Shown here: one piece after another, positions 1-40,729 of the stretch | How the letters are laid out: every line of letters starts with the position of its first letter | How positions within the stretch are numbered: the first letter of the stretch is position 1 | Source of the DNA: a virus | Virus record (IMG/VR): IMGVR_UViG_3300025590_000017 | Location: 1 to 40,729 of that record | Length of the DNA: 40,729 nucleotides | Direction: 5' to 3' (one strand) | Notes under the pieces: model-generated | Databases searched by the model: none | What the model was told of the DNA's origin: nothing | The model's input: only the letters and a program-made list of their open reading frames with translations | Position numbers and translations under genes: made by a program

Positions 1-378
1 CTCAAGAGCATTAAGCGCGATTTGGAGTTCAGCCTTGTTGGTGTTGACCAAGCAGCTGTCGCTGGTTCGTCTTCCGTAGCTCGTAAAATGGCATCACTGA
101 TCAACCAGATCTCTACTGGTATTGACGCCGGTGCCAACGCAACGGACGCCCTCACAGAGGCCAAGTTGCTTGAAGCTGGTCAAACAGCGTTCAACAATGG
201 CTCTGATCCGTCAGTGTTCATGATCAAACCAGCTGACGCCCAAATCGTCGCCGGTTTCTCAGCCTCTGCGGGTCGCAACCGTGAAGTCGCCCAGGGTAAG
301 ACCCTTGTGAATGTGATCGACCTCTATGTCTCGCCCTATGGCGAATATAAAGTGGTTCTTAACAGACACTTAGAGACT
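1..378. repeat. Terminal redundancy, left copy
   Basis: Bases 1-378 correspond to 40108-40436 joined to 40681-40729, that is, the right end without its intron. I count 13 differences in the 329 bases 5' of the intron site and 9 in the 49 bases 3' of it. The overlap shows that the contig closes on itself, but the copies are not identical, so the closure joins two alleles. Confidence 0.85.
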
Positions 379-549
379 TCACACGCCCTGTTGATCGACC
401 CGTCCATGTTCAAAACATGCGTACTGCGTCCGTTCACACGCACACTCCTAGCCAAGCAAGGCGACTCAGATCGCCATATGGTGGTCGGCGAATATTCCTG
501 TAAACACAGTAACTTCGCGGACAGTGTGAAGATCACCGGCCTTTCCTAA
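1..549 (+). CDS. Major capsid protein, C-terminal part, intronless copy
   Basis: The reading frame is open from base 1 and ends at TAA 547-549, giving the last 182 residues of a capsid protein of about 294 residues. The first 120 bases are identical to 40108-40227 in the capsid gene at the other window end, which supplies the missing N-terminus. The sequence (GVDQAAVAGSS, KPADAQIVAGFSASAGRN, then DLYVSPYGEYKVVLNRH) looks like the SU10/DUF5309 class of HK97-fold capsid proteins rather than T7 gp10; this family call is from memory of the family. The codon for Val before Ser-Pro-Tyr-Gly is uninterrupted here, whereas the other copy has a 244-nt intron inside that codon. Since the window is circularly redundant, this is either a second allele from the same population or a second gene copy. 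Confidence 0.88.
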   Translation, partial: LKSIKRDLEFSLVGVDQAAVAGSSSVARKMASLINQISTGIDAGANATDALTEAKLLEAGQTAFNNGSDPSVFMIKPADAQIVAGFSASAGRNREVAQGKTLVNVIDLYVSPYGEYKVVLNRHLETSHALLIDPSMFKTCVLRPFTRTLLAKQGDSDRHMVVGEYSCKHSNFADSVKITGLS

Positions 550-7209: not shown

Positions 7210-7581
7210 ATGCTCTCACAACTAATAGGCCCAGTCACAAGTCTCCTCGACAAGTTTATTCCTGATAAAGACGCAGCCGCAGCCCTCAGTCATGAGATAG
7301 CAACGATGGCAGAACGACATGGCCAGGAGCTGGCACTCGCACAGCTGGCGGTAAACAAAGAGGAAGCTAAGGGCAACTGGTTCCAGTCCTCTTGGCGTCC
7401 CGCCACGGCTTGGGTCTGTGTGATGGGCATGGCCATTAACTTTATGATCTCACCGCTGCTGGCCCCATGGGAAATCAACGTGCCACAGGTGGACACAGCA
7501 ACCATGATGCCCGTGCTCATGGGCCTCCTTGGATTAGGCACACTGCGCACCTTTGAGCGCACTAAAGGAGTAAGCAAGTGA
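7210..7581 (+). CDS. Holin, 3TM family-like
   Basis: The 123-residue protein begins with an amphipathic stretch (LSQLIGPVTSLLDKFIPDKDAA), then a helical charged part, then GNWFQSSWRPATAWVCVMGMAINFMI and a second hydrophobic segment (MMPVLMGLLGLGTLRTFER). The Trp-Arg-Pro core before a membrane helix is the signature of the Holin_3TMs/GTA holin family (PF11351-like, assigned by eye). Holins form membrane lesions that let the endolysin reach the cell wall. It sits one base after the upstream gene and its TGA overlaps the GTG start of the endolysin, so the pair is coupled. Confidence 0.82.
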   Translation: MLSQLIGPVTSLLDKFIPDKDAAAALSHEIATMAERHGQELALAQLAVNKEEAKGNWFQSSWRPATAWVCVMGMAINFMISPLLAPWEINVPQVDTATMMPVLMGLLGLGTLRTFERTKGVSK

Positions 7582-8093
7582 AAGACAACTTCGAGCAATC
7601 CCTAAAGATGATCCTGCACCACGAAGGTGGCTATGTGAACCACCCTAGTGACCCCGGTGGACGCACGAACCTTGGTGTCACCCAAGCTGTCTATGAGAGC
7701 TGGGTAGATCGTCCAGTTACTGAGGATGAGATGCGGTCGCTGACGGTGGAAGATGTCACGCCCATATACAAACGTAACTATTGGGACCGGGTCAAAGGTG
7801 ACGACCTGCCAGCCGGTGTTGACTTTGCTGTCTTTGACTTGGCCGTCAATGGTGGCACCGGCAGAGGAGCCAAGATGCTCCAGAAGGTTGTGGGTGTCAC
7901 ACAAGATGGCGGCATTGGTCCTCAGACACTAGGCGCTGTAGGACGTATGGATCCAGTAGACATCATCGAACAGTACGCCGCCGAGCGTGAGGCCTTCTAC
8001 CGGCGCCTAAAGACCTTCGACACCTTTGGCCGTGGTTGGCTCCGGCGTAACGAAGAGACACGTCTAGCCGCCCTCAAGATGGCTGACAAATAA
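7578..8093 (+). CDS. Endolysin, glycoside hydrolase family 108-type
   Basis: The 171-residue lysozyme cleaves peptidoglycan at the end of infection. The N-terminal motif HHEGGYVNHPSDPGGRTNLG contains the catalytic Glu16 of the GH108 (ZliS-like) fold, and the C-terminal half (GGIGPQTLGAVG, DIIEQYAAEREAFYRRL, RGWLRRNEE) matches the peptidoglycan-binding part of that family. No signal peptide is visible, so release depends on the holin. The start is GTG 7578, which overlaps the holin TGA; AAAGGAG lies 8 bases upstream. Length is typical for the family. Confidence 0.92.
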   Translation: MKDNFEQSLKMILHHEGGYVNHPSDPGGRTNLGVTQAVYESWVDRPVTEDEMRSLTVEDVTPIYKRNYWDRVKGDDLPAGVDFAVFDLAVNGGTGRGAKMLQKVVGVTQDGGIGPQTLGAVGRMDPVDIIEQYAAEREAFYRRLKTFDTFGRGWLRRNEETRLAALKMADK

Positions 8094-8745: not shown

Positions 8746-8975
8746 GCAAGTATTTCACACTCGTAATTAACACCGGCGAAACCTGGGAAGACGTATATGG
8801 CGACTATAGCGCCAAGGCTTGCCGTGATGAGTTTCTCTTTAGCTACAATGAGTACACCCACCCACACTTTGACCGCACCTGGCGCACCAGTGATTCTAAG
8901 GTCGTCTGCACTGATGGTACATCGGCTGACCTGATCGCCTGCTTGGCTCACATGAACCGTGAGGTGGCATCATGA
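8742..8975 (+). CDS. Hypothetical protein, upstream of integrase
   Basis: A 77-residue protein with a beta-rich start (KYFTLVINTGETWEDVYGDYSAKACRDEFLFSY) and several aromatic residues; no known family recognised. Its start and stop both overlap neighbours by 4 bases (ATGA at 8742 and at 8972), which strongly supports translation as part of the integrase unit. It could be a small integrase accessory factor by position, but its sequence gives no direct support for DNA binding. Confidence 0.7.
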   Translation: MSKYFTLVINTGETWEDVYGDYSAKACRDEFLFSYNEYTHPHFDRTWRTSDSKVVCTDGTSADLIACLAHMNREVAS

Positions 8976-9823
8976 AGATCTCTGATTTCCTCAACACCCA
9001 CGCGCACCGCATCTGGACCGGCAAGCACCTGAAAGAGAGCCAGGCGAAGATAAACCTGTTGCTGTCCCACAGCGACAACGCCGACAAGAACCTGGAAGAC
9101 CTCCGGGCTCCTGACATCATCGAGTTTGACCACTGGCTTCAGGAGGAGCGTGGTCTGTCTAAGAACACCTGTAACCACTACAAGGCGGCCATCGGTGCCC
9201 TTTACGGGTATGCGGTGGACTATGAGGCCATCACACCTGACCAGGTCCCACGGATGAAGTTTCACAAGGTAGACAGCACCCGCATCCGTTACTTCACGGA
9301 CCTGGAGATCAAACGTGCGTATGACTTCTTTGCTGGCCATAAGCACAGCTGGGTGATGCACTTCTTCACGATCGGCCTTAACACCGGCATGCGCCTGGGC
9401 GAGATCCAGAGTGTTACACCTGAGATGTTTGTGGAGATTGACGGCGAACTGTTTGTAGCTCTTAGAGACACCAAGAATGGCGATGACCGACAGGTTGCTA
9501 TCAACGAGGCAGCCCGGTTAGCTTTTGACGCCCTAGACCGTGAGCCCTCTAAATACTTCCGCCACCGCCCGTTCTACAGCACCTGGGGAGACGTGCGCTA
9601 CACAGTCTTCAAGGGTGATGAAACAGCGGTATTCCACGTCACACGGCATACATACTGCACCACCCTGGTGAACGACCTGAACGTCAATGAGTTCATGGTT
9701 ATGAACGTCATGGGCCACCGGGACCCTAAGACCACAAAGAAGTATGTCCACATGAAGACGGGTGAGGCCTCAAGCATCAACGATCGTATAAACCACCTGT
9801 ATCAGAGGGGGATTGCAGGATGA
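8972..9823 (+). CDS. int: Tyrosine recombinase / phage integrase
   Basis: The 283-residue protein has the two-domain plan of tyrosine integrases. Residues 1-90 are the SAM-like core-binding domain (KHLKESQAKINLLLSH, DLRAPDIIEFDHWLQEERGLS). The catalytic domain carries Arg141 (TGMRLGEI), His222-x-x-Arg225 (HVTRHTYC), His249 (VMGHRDPKTT) and nucleophile Tyr258 (KKYVHM), so all key residues are present and the enzyme looks active. It would catalyse integration at a host tRNA gene using the attP-like site about 500 bases upstream. At 283 residues it is compact and lacks a long arm-binding domain. The start ATG overlaps the upstream stop. Confidence 0.93.
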   Translation: MKISDFLNTHAHRIWTGKHLKESQAKINLLLSHSDNADKNLEDLRAPDIIEFDHWLQEERGLSKNTCNHYKAAIGALYGYAVDYEAITPDQVPRMKFHKVDSTRIRYFTDLEIKRAYDFFAGHKHSWVMHFFTIGLNTGMRLGEIQSVTPEMFVEIDGELFVALRDTKNGDDRQVAINEAARLAFDALDREPSKYFRHRPFYSTWGDVRYTVFKGDETAVFHVTRHTYCTTLVNDLNVNEFMVMNVMGHRDPKTTKKYVHMKTGEASSINDRINHLYQRGIAG

Positions 9824-12771: not shown

Positions 12772-13311
12772 ATGACTAAAGTTAACTTTGTGACTAAGGC
12801 TGGCCACGCGCAATATGCTTGGCTTCAACCAGGTCGCCCTGACACCGCTTTTGATGCAGAAGGTAAGTACAAAACAAACCTGATCCTCTCTGCGCAAGAC
12901 GCCGCGCCGTTGGTTGATGCAATTAAAGCTCTACGCAAAACCAGCACTAAGTTCACACCAAAGGACAATGTCTCGTTGCCTTTCTCTGTTGATGACGAAA
13001 CCGGCGATATCACACTTAAAGTGTCCAGTAAGTTCCAACCCAAATACATGGATGCCAAGGGTAACCCGGTGCCGATCGACCAGGTTCCTCTGATGTATTC
13101 TGGGTCAACTTTGCGCCTTAGTGGTGCCATGGATGCTTGGTCCAAGGGTGCCAACCGTGGGATCGCCCTACGTCTAGGCGCTGTCCAGATCATTGACCCT
13201 GTGTCTAGCGGCGGGTCTGCCGGTCAGTTCGATGCCGTGGAGGGATATGAAGCCTCTGCTGAGACGTTCCCTGGTGGTGCTGCTGACTCTGACGACAATT
13301 ATGACTTTTGA
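12772..13311 (+). CDS. Single-stranded DNA-binding protein, T7 gp2.5-like
   Basis: The 179-residue protein coats single-stranded DNA during replication and recruits the polymerase and helicase. It has an OB-fold-like centre (KYKTNLILSAQDAAPLVDAI, ITLKVSSKFQPKYMDAKGNPV, LRLSGAMDAWSKGANRGIALRL) and a strongly acidic tail ending DSDDNYDF; a terminal acidic tail closed by Phe is the hallmark of T7 gp2.5. ATG 12772 follows AAAGGAGA by 6 bases, better than an in-frame ATG at 12748. It lies right behind a phage promoter motif and overlaps the endonuclease start by 11 bases. Confidence 0.87.
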   Translation: MTKVNFVTKAGHAQYAWLQPGRPDTAFDAEGKYKTNLILSAQDAAPLVDAIKALRKTSTKFTPKDNVSLPFSVDDETGDITLKVSSKFQPKYMDAKGNPVPIDQVPLMYSGSTLRLSGAMDAWSKGANRGIALRLGAVQIIDPVSSGGSAGQFDAVEGYEASAETFPGGAADSDDNYDF

Positions 13312-13753
13312 TGCAGTGCGTATGTCTGGCGCAAGATCTACCGCCTATCGCCTCGGGTTCCGTTCAGGGCTCGAGGAGAAGGTCGCAGATCAGATAAAGA
13401 AAGCTGGGCTACAGGTTACATATGAGACCGACACGGTGATCTACAGGATCCCGGCTCGAGATCATAAATACACGCCAGACTTCAAACTACAAAAGCCTGG
13501 TGGTGGGTTCTTTTATTGCGAGACCAAAGGGTTATGGACAGTTCAAGACAGGGCTAAGATTTTACTCTGCATAGAACAGAACCCTGGTATCGACATAAGA
13601 ATGGTATTTAGTAACCAGAACAGCAGGTTGTACAAGGGTAGCCCAACCACATACGCAATGTACTGCGAAAAGAACGGGATCAAGTATGCACACAAGTGGA
13701 TACCTGATGACTGGCTGGAGGAAGCCAGACAAGGAGAGCAGGGGGTGGCTTAG
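13301..13753 (+). CDS. Endonuclease I, T7 gp3-like Holliday junction resolvase
   Basis: The 150-residue product matches T7 endonuclease I along its length: FRSGLEEKVADQIKKAG, IPARDHKYTPDFKL, ETKGLWTVQDRAKILL, DIRMVFSNQNSRLYKGSPTTY and CEKNGIKYAHKWIP. The metal-binding triad is present: Asp in YTPDF, Glu and Lys in CETKG. It cuts branched DNA, resolving recombination intermediates and degrading host DNA. The start is uncertain: ATG 13301 overlaps the SSB end, ATG 13322 begins nearer the usual family start; neither has a clear ribosome site, so coupling to SSB is likely. The stop codon lies in the loop of a terminator. Confidence 0.93.
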   Translation: MTFDAVRMSGARSTAYRLGFRSGLEEKVADQIKKAGLQVTYETDTVIYRIPARDHKYTPDFKLQKPGGGFFYCETKGLWTVQDRAKILLCIEQNPGIDIRMVFSNQNSRLYKGSPTTYAMYCEKNGIKYAHKWIPDDWLEEARQGEQGVA

Positions 13754-39771: not shown

Positions 39772-40436
39772 ATGACTGTTTACACAACTTATTCTCAGGT
39801 CGGTAAGGCCGAGGACGTTTCCAATATCCTCTCAGATATTACTCCCACAGATACGCCTATGCTGACAATGACGAAGACTGAGAAAGTGTCCGCACGGACG
39901 TTCTCATTCCTCGAAGACAGCCTCCGCGCCGCAGCGTCTAACGCTAAGGTCGAGGGCGCAGATGCCGCAGATATCACTCTGATCGACATCGTTGAGCGTA
40001 CCAACAACACCCAGATCCTGGAAGAAACCTTCCGTATTTCTGGTTCTGCTGATGCGGTAAAAACCTATGGCCGAGCCAAGGAAACCGCACTGCAACTTGG
40101 TAAAACTCTCAAGAGCATTAAGCGCGATTTGGAGTTCAGCCTTGTTGGTGTTGACCAAGCAGCTGTCGCTGGTTCGTCTTCCGTAGCTCGTAAAATGGCA
40201 TCACTGATCAACCAGATCTCTACTGGTGTTGACGCCGGTGCCGGAGCAGCGGACGCCCTCACAGAGGCCAAATTGCTTGAAGCTGGTCAAACAGCGTTCA
40301 ACAATGGTTCTGATCCGTCAGTGTTCATGATCAAACCAGCTGACGCCCAAATCGTCGCTGGTTTCTCAGCATCTGCTGGTCGCAACCGTGAAGTCGCCCA
40401 GGGTAAGACCCTCGTGAATGTGATCGACCTGTACGT
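39772..40436 (+). CDS. Major capsid protein, exon 1
   Basis: This exon encodes the first 221 residues plus two bases of codon 222. It begins MTVYTTYSQVGKAEDVSNIL with ITPTDTPMLTMTKTEKVSARTFSFLED, a start I associate with the SU10/DUF5309 class of HK97-fold capsid proteins. Unspliced, the frame runs only six codons into the intron (Asp-Val-Ala-Ser-Val-His) and stops at 40456-40458, which would truncate the capsid protein by about 70 residues. Splicing to 40681 restores ...LYV-SPYGEYKVVLNRH..., the same sequence as the intronless copy at 322-366. AAGGAG precedes ATG 39772. Confidence 0.92.
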
Positions 40437-40680
40437 TGACGTGGCTAGCGTACATTAAATCTGGTGAACTCAGGGGAAGCCTAAGTCGAAAGATAAGGTA
40501 ATCCTGAGCCAAGCCCCAGTAATGGGGAAGGTGCAACGACTATCCCGCAAGGGAGTAGGATCAAGTGATCCGAAGCGCCAGACACTGCGAATAGCGGTGA
40601 TGATATAGTCTCATCTTATGTGAAAGCATAAGCAGCCGAAAGGCGGTCTAGTATTAACGACACTAGGCGAAGATGCCATG
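40437..40680 (+). ncRNA. Group I self-splicing intron (IA-type), no ORF
   Basis: The 244-nt insertion splits codon 222 of the capsid gene. P1 is exact: exon GTACGT pairs with the guide GCGTAC (40448-40453) with the required U-G at the splice site, and the intron ends in G (40680). Core: P3 TCTGGTG with CGCCAGA; P4 CTCAGG with CCTGAG; P5 CCT/AGG capped by GUC-GAAA-GAU; P6 GCC/GGT with CCCC/GGGG; P7 GACTA with TAGTC; P8 CACTGC with GCGGTG; P9 CATCTT with AAGATG. Two extra hairpins after the P7 5' strand (CCC-GCAA-GGG and GGATC/GATCC) are the P7.1/P7.2 mark of subgroup IA. It encodes no homing endonuclease. Confidence 0.95.
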
Positions 40681-40729
40681 TAGCCCATATGGCGAATACA
40701 AAGTTGTTCTCAACCGACACTTAGAGACT
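40681..40729 (+). CDS. Major capsid protein, exon 2 (partial)
   Basis: After the intron the frame resumes as the last base of Val222, then Ser-Pro-Tyr-Gly-Glu-Tyr-Lys-Val-Val-Leu-Asn-Arg-His-Leu-Glu-Thr. It runs off the window end and continues, by circularity, at about base 379. The encoded residues are identical to the intronless copy although 9 of 49 bases differ. Confidence 0.88.

Follow-up and report, generated by a model that had tools for sequence, protein, structure and literature searches.

Our sequence comparisons confirm that positions 40437-40680 (+ strand) of the window, by which we mean the whole stretch of 40,729 nucleotides of viral DNA that was analyzed, read as a group IA intron, complete and without an ORF, that interrupts the gene for the major capsid protein (MCP) of a marine phage. 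We consider it highly probable that this is a self-splicing intron in a single MCP gene, and that it belongs to an ORF-less lineage of capsid introns that spreads by conversion. The sampled members of this lineage reside mostly in capsid genes, with up to four introns per gene, and carry no endonuclease. The usual picture of phage introns is of elements that reside in polymerase, terminase and nucleotide-metabolism genes and are mobilized by an endonuclease of their own.

RESULTS

The MCP gene is interrupted by a 244-nt group I intron

A cmscan search identified the intron as a match to RF00028 (group I intron) at window 40410-40632 (+), covering the full model (1-253) with 98.1 bits (E 2.5e-24), compared to a gathering score of 50; this was the sole Rfam match in the whole window. 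The 5' exon of the MCP gene (39772..40436, +) begins with the ATG at 39772 and comprises 222 codons, the last split after its second base, and it matches phrog_1328 major head protein (E 2.2e-53). The 3' exon (40681..40729, +), which is truncated by the contig end, encodes S-P-Y-G-E-Y-K-V-V-L-N-R-H-L-E-T. Splice sites at 40436/40437 and 40680/40681 delimit an intron of 244 nt (40437..40680, +), with junctions that read ...GACCTGTACGU/UGACGU...GCCAUG/UAGCCCAUAUGG..., such that the 3' exon starts with UAGCCC directly after the terminal G40680. Joining the exons gives D-L-Y-V-S-P-Y-G-E-Y, and the identical residues are found in an intronless copy of the gene at window 1-549. None of the three frames is open within the 244 nt. 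The assignment thus draws on the RF00028 match and the exon joint, as well as on the covariation described below; in addition, the fold of a 276-nt region has a z of -4.3, and none of 200 shuffles was equally stable. An earlier note, made from the sequence alone, had described a complete group IA-type core with P7.1 and P7.2, located in the major capsid gene, with no ORF inside and with exact restoration of the capsid sequence on exon joining, and had named an Infernal search with RF00028 as a check; the search returned the match given above, and the description holds in each of these respects.

Covariation supports the core and extends into the exons

We drew the structure from the window sequence and then scored it on an alignment of 41 introns from the MCP family. 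Among these 41 relatives, 87.9% of the cells in the drawn structure are paired, and cells changed on both sides number 497, compared to 165 in shuffles. The covariation score is 0.445, compared to 0.097 or less with partners slid by one to three columns, a difference larger than the bias that comes from taking the structure from one of the aligned sequences.

The core has the P3-P8 and P4-P6 domains with the P7 pseudoknot, as in group I introns, with P3, P4, P6 and P7 paired in 97.6-100% of cells (all coordinates here are on the + strand). P3 (5' strand, 40461..40466; 3' strand, 40576-40581) is 97.6% paired and has three pairs changed on both sides. P4 (40470-40474/40503-40507), which encloses P5 (40479-40499) within 40470..40507, is 99% paired with four of five pairs compensatory, and P6 and P6a (40508..40532) are 97.6% and 100% paired. 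The guanosine-binding pseudoknot helix P7, formed by GACUA (40538..40542) and UAGUC (40606-40610), is 100% paired and includes two compensatory pairs, while P8 (40583..40599) is 88% paired with all six of its pairs compensatory. Two further hairpins, P7.1 (40543-40554) and P7.2 (40558-40571), together 40543..40571, are marks of subgroup IA, and their presence places the intron in that subgroup; they are 95% and 99% paired, and all nine counted pairs are compensatory. The 3' part, 40615..40666, folds into P9 (40615-40632), P9.1 (40635-40644) and P9.2 (40648-40666), which are 80%, 94% and 97% paired.

The pairings with the exons covary as well. In P1, the 5' exon side UGUACGU (40430..40436), which covaries across insertion sites, pairs with the internal guide sequence GCGUACA (40448..40454), the last U of the exon pairing with G. 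This U40436-G40448 pair and the terminal G40680 are the end signals of a group I intron, and they are likewise present in the relatives. In P10, GGCUA (40443..40447) on the intron side pairs with UAGCC (40681-40685) in the 3' exon. The pairing of P1 with its own exons has a mean of 5.6, compared to 3.6 or less with exons swapped between sites; for P10, the corresponding values are 3.1 and 1.8 or less. Moreover, compensatory variants of P10 occur at site 222, such as GACUA/UAGUC in L025, L041, L179 and L259 and ACUG/CAGU in L042 and L066. From the conserved core and the exon covariation, we infer that the RNA would be catalytic and that the capsid would be made from the spliced message.

The contig carries two alleles of the MCP gene

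Window 1..549 (+) holds an MCP allele from codon 113 to the stop, truncated by the contig start and matching phrog_1328 (E 4e-39). Since the other end of the contig is thus an intronless allele of the same gene, the population is polymorphic for the intron. The intron-plus and intronless alleles differ at 22 of 378 shared nt, and 10 of these 22 differences fall in a single 40-nt bin, the one in which the insertion site lies. The differences beside the insertion site are all synonymous, including a switch between serine codon boxes (TCG to AGC); only three amino-acid changes separate the two alleles, and all three lie upstream. One detail to correct is that the sequence at the window start does not continue the same molecule but is instead this second allele. 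Nor does every virion depend on splicing, as that note supposed, given the intronless allele on the same contig and nine near-identical intronless contigs.

Differing contig ends are not proof of two MCP genes in one genome. Two contigs from other metagenomes (L001 and L002) carry a 100% identical intron in the same gene and run downstream into sequence that matches window 1 onward. Because these intron-plus contigs lead into the sequence of window 1 onward, we rejected the possibility of a second MCP gene in one genome, and because independent contigs carry the identical intron, we also rejected an assembly artefact. The contig most likely passes from the intron-plus to the intron-minus version within a mixed population.

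We noted several further features of the phage. It is T7-like with its own RNA polymerase, and the integrase gene at window 8972-9823 suggests a temperate T7-like phage. A holin of the gene-transfer-agent type (GTA_holin_3TM) adjoins a glycosyl hydrolase 108 lysin at window 7210-8093. Relatives of the MCP are found in contigs of Novosphingobium, Microvirga and other proteobacteria.

Related introns occupy many sites in the MCP family

Relatives were obtained from MCP homologues in viral contigs and from contigs matched by two intron-core patterns. A splice-site solver placed 110 distinct introns in the MCP family, of which 81 are of ordinary length and have well-supported sites; placements that scored low or had little margin (about 29 of the 110) were excluded from the structure, tree and stop-codon analyses. 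In one case (L047), the 5' splice site was assigned by eye instead of by the solver, with the codon unchanged. The introns occupy nine or more insertion sites, which we designate by MCP codon and phase: 222.2 (17 introns), 107.1 (17), 26.0 (16), 19.2 (12), 225.1 (8), 225.0 (3), 51.2 (2) and 59.1 (2), as well as sites with a single intron each, such as 7.1, 18.0 and 48.2. Several MCP genes carry two introns, two genes carry three (L179, L274), and one carries four (L164). In L164, a 5-kb contig, the four group I introns of this one capsid gene lie within 148-1763. All well-delimited introns in the family are 222-281 nt long, which leaves no room for an endonuclease in any of them.

One relative is found in phage C72C1 (OQ984150), in which an intron with 83.5% identity over 78% of the window intron interrupts the homologous MCP gene, although it sits at MCP codon 107 rather than 222. 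In this circular record (L082, OQ984150.1), the capsid gene appears in the annotation as two separate 'major head protein' genes that flank three hypothetical genes on the reverse strand; these reverse-strand ORFs are spurious, and an unannotated group I intron lies there.

The in-frame stop UAA right after P1 (40456..40458, +) would cause unspliced mRNA to yield a truncated MCP of 228 amino acids. An in-frame stop lies within the first 30 nt of the intron in 79 of the 81 well-supported introns; since early stops are also found in 118 of 162 cases for the other two frames, which dilutes the signal, the excess of early in-frame stops is modest, and we build no strong claim on it. In the view of a review (PMC3984707), an arrested ribosome helps introns of this kind to fold, and both the UAA behind P1 and a stop within 30 nt in nearly all of these introns fit such a role.

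The capsid gene is the commonest home of the lineage in the contigs sampled

We ran an Rfam search on 66 records of the phage group (18 + 48; about 1.44 Mb), leaving out two (G051 and G052) that had been fetched for introns in other genes. It detected 30 group I introns, spread over 23 records and matching in number the MCP introns from the solver; the 43 records in which the MCP gene is uninterrupted gave none. All group I introns detected in these 66 contigs are in the MCP gene, which is oversampled, as the contigs were picked via the MCP, yet makes up only a few per cent of the searched bases.

Among 231 contigs found by the intron-core patterns, the intron lies in the MCP family in 72 and in a second homology cluster, with PHROG matches to major head proteins only, in 57 more. 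Thus, at least 129 of 231 (56%) have the intron in a capsid gene, a share that is valid for the lineage and not for phage introns generally, since the first two patterns were derived from capsid introns. Other genes that harbor the intron include those for DNA polymerase and ribonucleotide reductase. In a control set found with a different core motif, the same two criteria assigned 23 of 120 to capsid genes; this set is rich in psbA and endonuclease-associated introns. In the control contigs L393-L510, the cyanophage photosystem gene psbA is host to many introns of the second core type (16 of 86 exons scanned). Among isolates, most annotated matches fall within or next to polymerase, terminase, thymidylate synthase or reductase genes, and C72C1 is the only capsid case among the matches listed. 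We also observed eleven contigs (L289, L295, L329, L334 and seven more) in which an intron of the lineage core type adjoins a LAGLIDADG-like endonuclease gene; the exon-side ORFs of these contigs are 83-100% identical to one another.

Among the viral contigs sampled, the capsid gene is the commonest location that we found for the lineage. The earlier note had called a capsid location unusual, but it is no oddity, and there are published precedents (PMC3706429, PMC7886860).

Flanking sequences and intron relationships indicate recent mobility

The nine intronless contigs are mostly 95-100% identical to intron-plus alleles around the gene. Beside the insertion, identity to these contigs falls to 82-88% in the 50 nt after it and is 92-96% in the 50 nt before it, and the intron-plus alleles match one another in these flanks; there is a second, smaller dip about 200 nt upstream of the insertion. 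The dip could partly stem from co-adaptation of the exons to P1 and P10, and not from coconversion. Ser223 is encoded by AGY in 15 of the 17 genes with the intron; among the other serine codons, AGY accounts for 25 of 68 (P = 2e-4, an optimistic value because the sequences are related).

The introns of L001 and L184 are 98% identical, while the MCPs are 68% identical in amino-acid sequence (5' exon). On the intron tree, introns cluster by site (29 changes compared to 54 in shuffles), but the clustering is imperfect, and starred branches force several site changes. In one pair (L301:2631-2894 and L189:6100-6377), the intron bodies are 97% identical but lie 29 codons apart in closely related MCPs, and the 5' modules are unrelated, that of L189 being typical of its site. 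The site of the nearest relative was predicted by the 5' module in 62 of 66 cases, compared to 55 of 66 for the body. The arrangement in L301 and L189 may stem from transposition accompanied by a new guide, or from recombination between introns that sit at different sites. Taken together, the apparently coconverted flanks, the near-identical introns in divergent capsids and the one apparent site jump indicate recent mobility, judging from comparison of the alleles.

Intron-minus alleles and flank coconversion, the latter deduced from comparing sequences, are features of a homing intron; an endonuclease ORF of its own is absent from the window intron and from the delimited relatives (222-281 nt). 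We found no HNH_3 or GIY-YIG endonuclease in 44 intron-plus and 42 intron-minus records, and no HNH or LAGLIDADG_3 endonuclease in 23 intron-plus records; the built-in controls were positive, and the records searched are mostly fragments, although several are near full genome length (39-41 kb) and that of C72C1 is circular. This result is limited to the families searched, and other or unknown nuclease families may exist. Pfam searches of the ORFs and whole-record searches revealed no homing endonuclease gene in the window. The window does encode a T7-type endonuclease I (13193-13753); this gene is normal for T7-like phages, and we did not count it as a homing enzyme. A free-standing endonuclease of the same phage that could act as mobilizer was likewise not found in the records searched. 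The earlier note had argued that mobility needs an enzyme from elsewhere; the flanks and the L001/L184 comparison bear out the mobility, while the need for an outside enzyme is plausible but unproven, none of the searched families having been found.

DISCUSSION

We propose that the intron would fold within the late MCP transcript, in which guanosine bound in P7 would attack after U40436 and G40680 would guide exon joining via P10, restoring an MCP of 294 amino acids. The in-frame UAA behind P1 would halt the ribosome before it unfolds the core. The ORF-less lineage would persist mainly in capsid genes and spread when phages co-infect a cell, through DNA conversion of intronless alleles, with tens of bases of flanking exon carried along, which would account for the altered flanks; occasionally, an intron would change site with a new 5' P1 module. 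Conversion would probably start from a break made by another phage's endonuclease, or else through general phage recombination.

We considered several alternatives to this account. A bolder version, in which an endonuclease-free lineage has specialized on the capsid genes of tailed phages and repeatedly reaches new positions in that gene by swapping a site-specific 5' guide module on a shared catalytic body, through movement that is endonuclease-independent or RNA-guided, strikes us as rather unlikely. Somewhat less probable still is reverse splicing, in which the excised RNA would enter MCP mRNA, an abundant transcript, at short matches to the guide and a DNA copy would be recombined in. Such a route would explain why capsid genes are favored as well as how introns come to change site, and it is consistent with the targets at sites 107 and 222 both ending in CGU and with the shared body but different 5' modules in L301 and L189. 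However, it requires a reverse transcriptase, of which none is known in these phages, it does not by itself explain the change of guide sequence, and recombination between introns at different sites gives the same mosaic; moreover, direct evidence for the pathway is lacking according to a review (PMC3984707).

We attach a similarly low probability to the intron being retained for its benefit to the phage, either because it delays or tunes capsid synthesis or because it blocks cleavage of the MCP gene by an endonuclease from a rival phage. That introns recur in a single, highly expressed gene, occupying many sites across several capsid families, could be read this way, as could the early in-frame stops, which tie the yield of MCP to splicing. 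Nevertheless, near-identical genomes commonly carry intronless alleles, and the presence of between one and four introns in a gene, at sites that vary, suits an element that tolerates the gene better than a tuned switch.

Purely vertical inheritance, with intronless copies as losses and shared sites due to common descent only, appears very improbable. It would explain the grouping of introns by site on the tree, but the introns are far more alike than their host MCPs (98% compared to 68%), presence of the intron differs between near-identical genomes, flanking codons differ sharply only beside the insertion, and the starred branches force several changes of site. We therefore disfavor plain vertical descent. 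Finally, an assembly chimera or unspliced insertion, as might be suspected from a contig that is classed linear and has ends that disagree, has a negligible chance of being correct, given the identical intron in the same gene of L001 and L002, the relative in the circular C72C1 genome and the covariation that extends into the exons.

Introns in capsid genes are already known. In mycobacteriophage LittleE, a probable group I intron lies in the MCP gene, and its splicing was proven by RT-PCR and protein sequencing (PMC3706429), but that intron, a single case, is 819 bp long with a reverse-strand endonuclease ORF, whereas the window intron is 244 nt, ORF-less and from an unrelated phage. A group I intron in the capsid gene of lactococcal phage Tuc2009 is cited in PMC3706429. 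The crAss-like Delta and Zeta phages have group I introns in their MCP genes, with several per gene, and the MCP of one such phage is split into five pieces (PMC7886860). These introns were recognized via endonuclease domains in large, intron-rich genomes, in contrast to the present lineage, which is ORF-less and confined to the MCP gene in the genomes checked. Group IA2 introns of the T4 td type also differ, in that td bears an endonuclease ORF and is located in thymidylate synthase. In the open-access papers searched, we found no description of a lineage that lacks endonucleases and is concentrated in capsid genes, at numerous sites and in several capsid families, although earlier reports may exist.

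If our account is correct, capsid genes are underannotated in viral metagenomes, as illustrated by C72C1, with its capsid deposited as fragments, and the capsid supply of these phages would rest on a ribozyme. The intron-plus and intronless versions of the MCP gene would then offer a natural allele pair for testing how introns that lack an enzyme of their own spread, and why the MCP gene is preferred.
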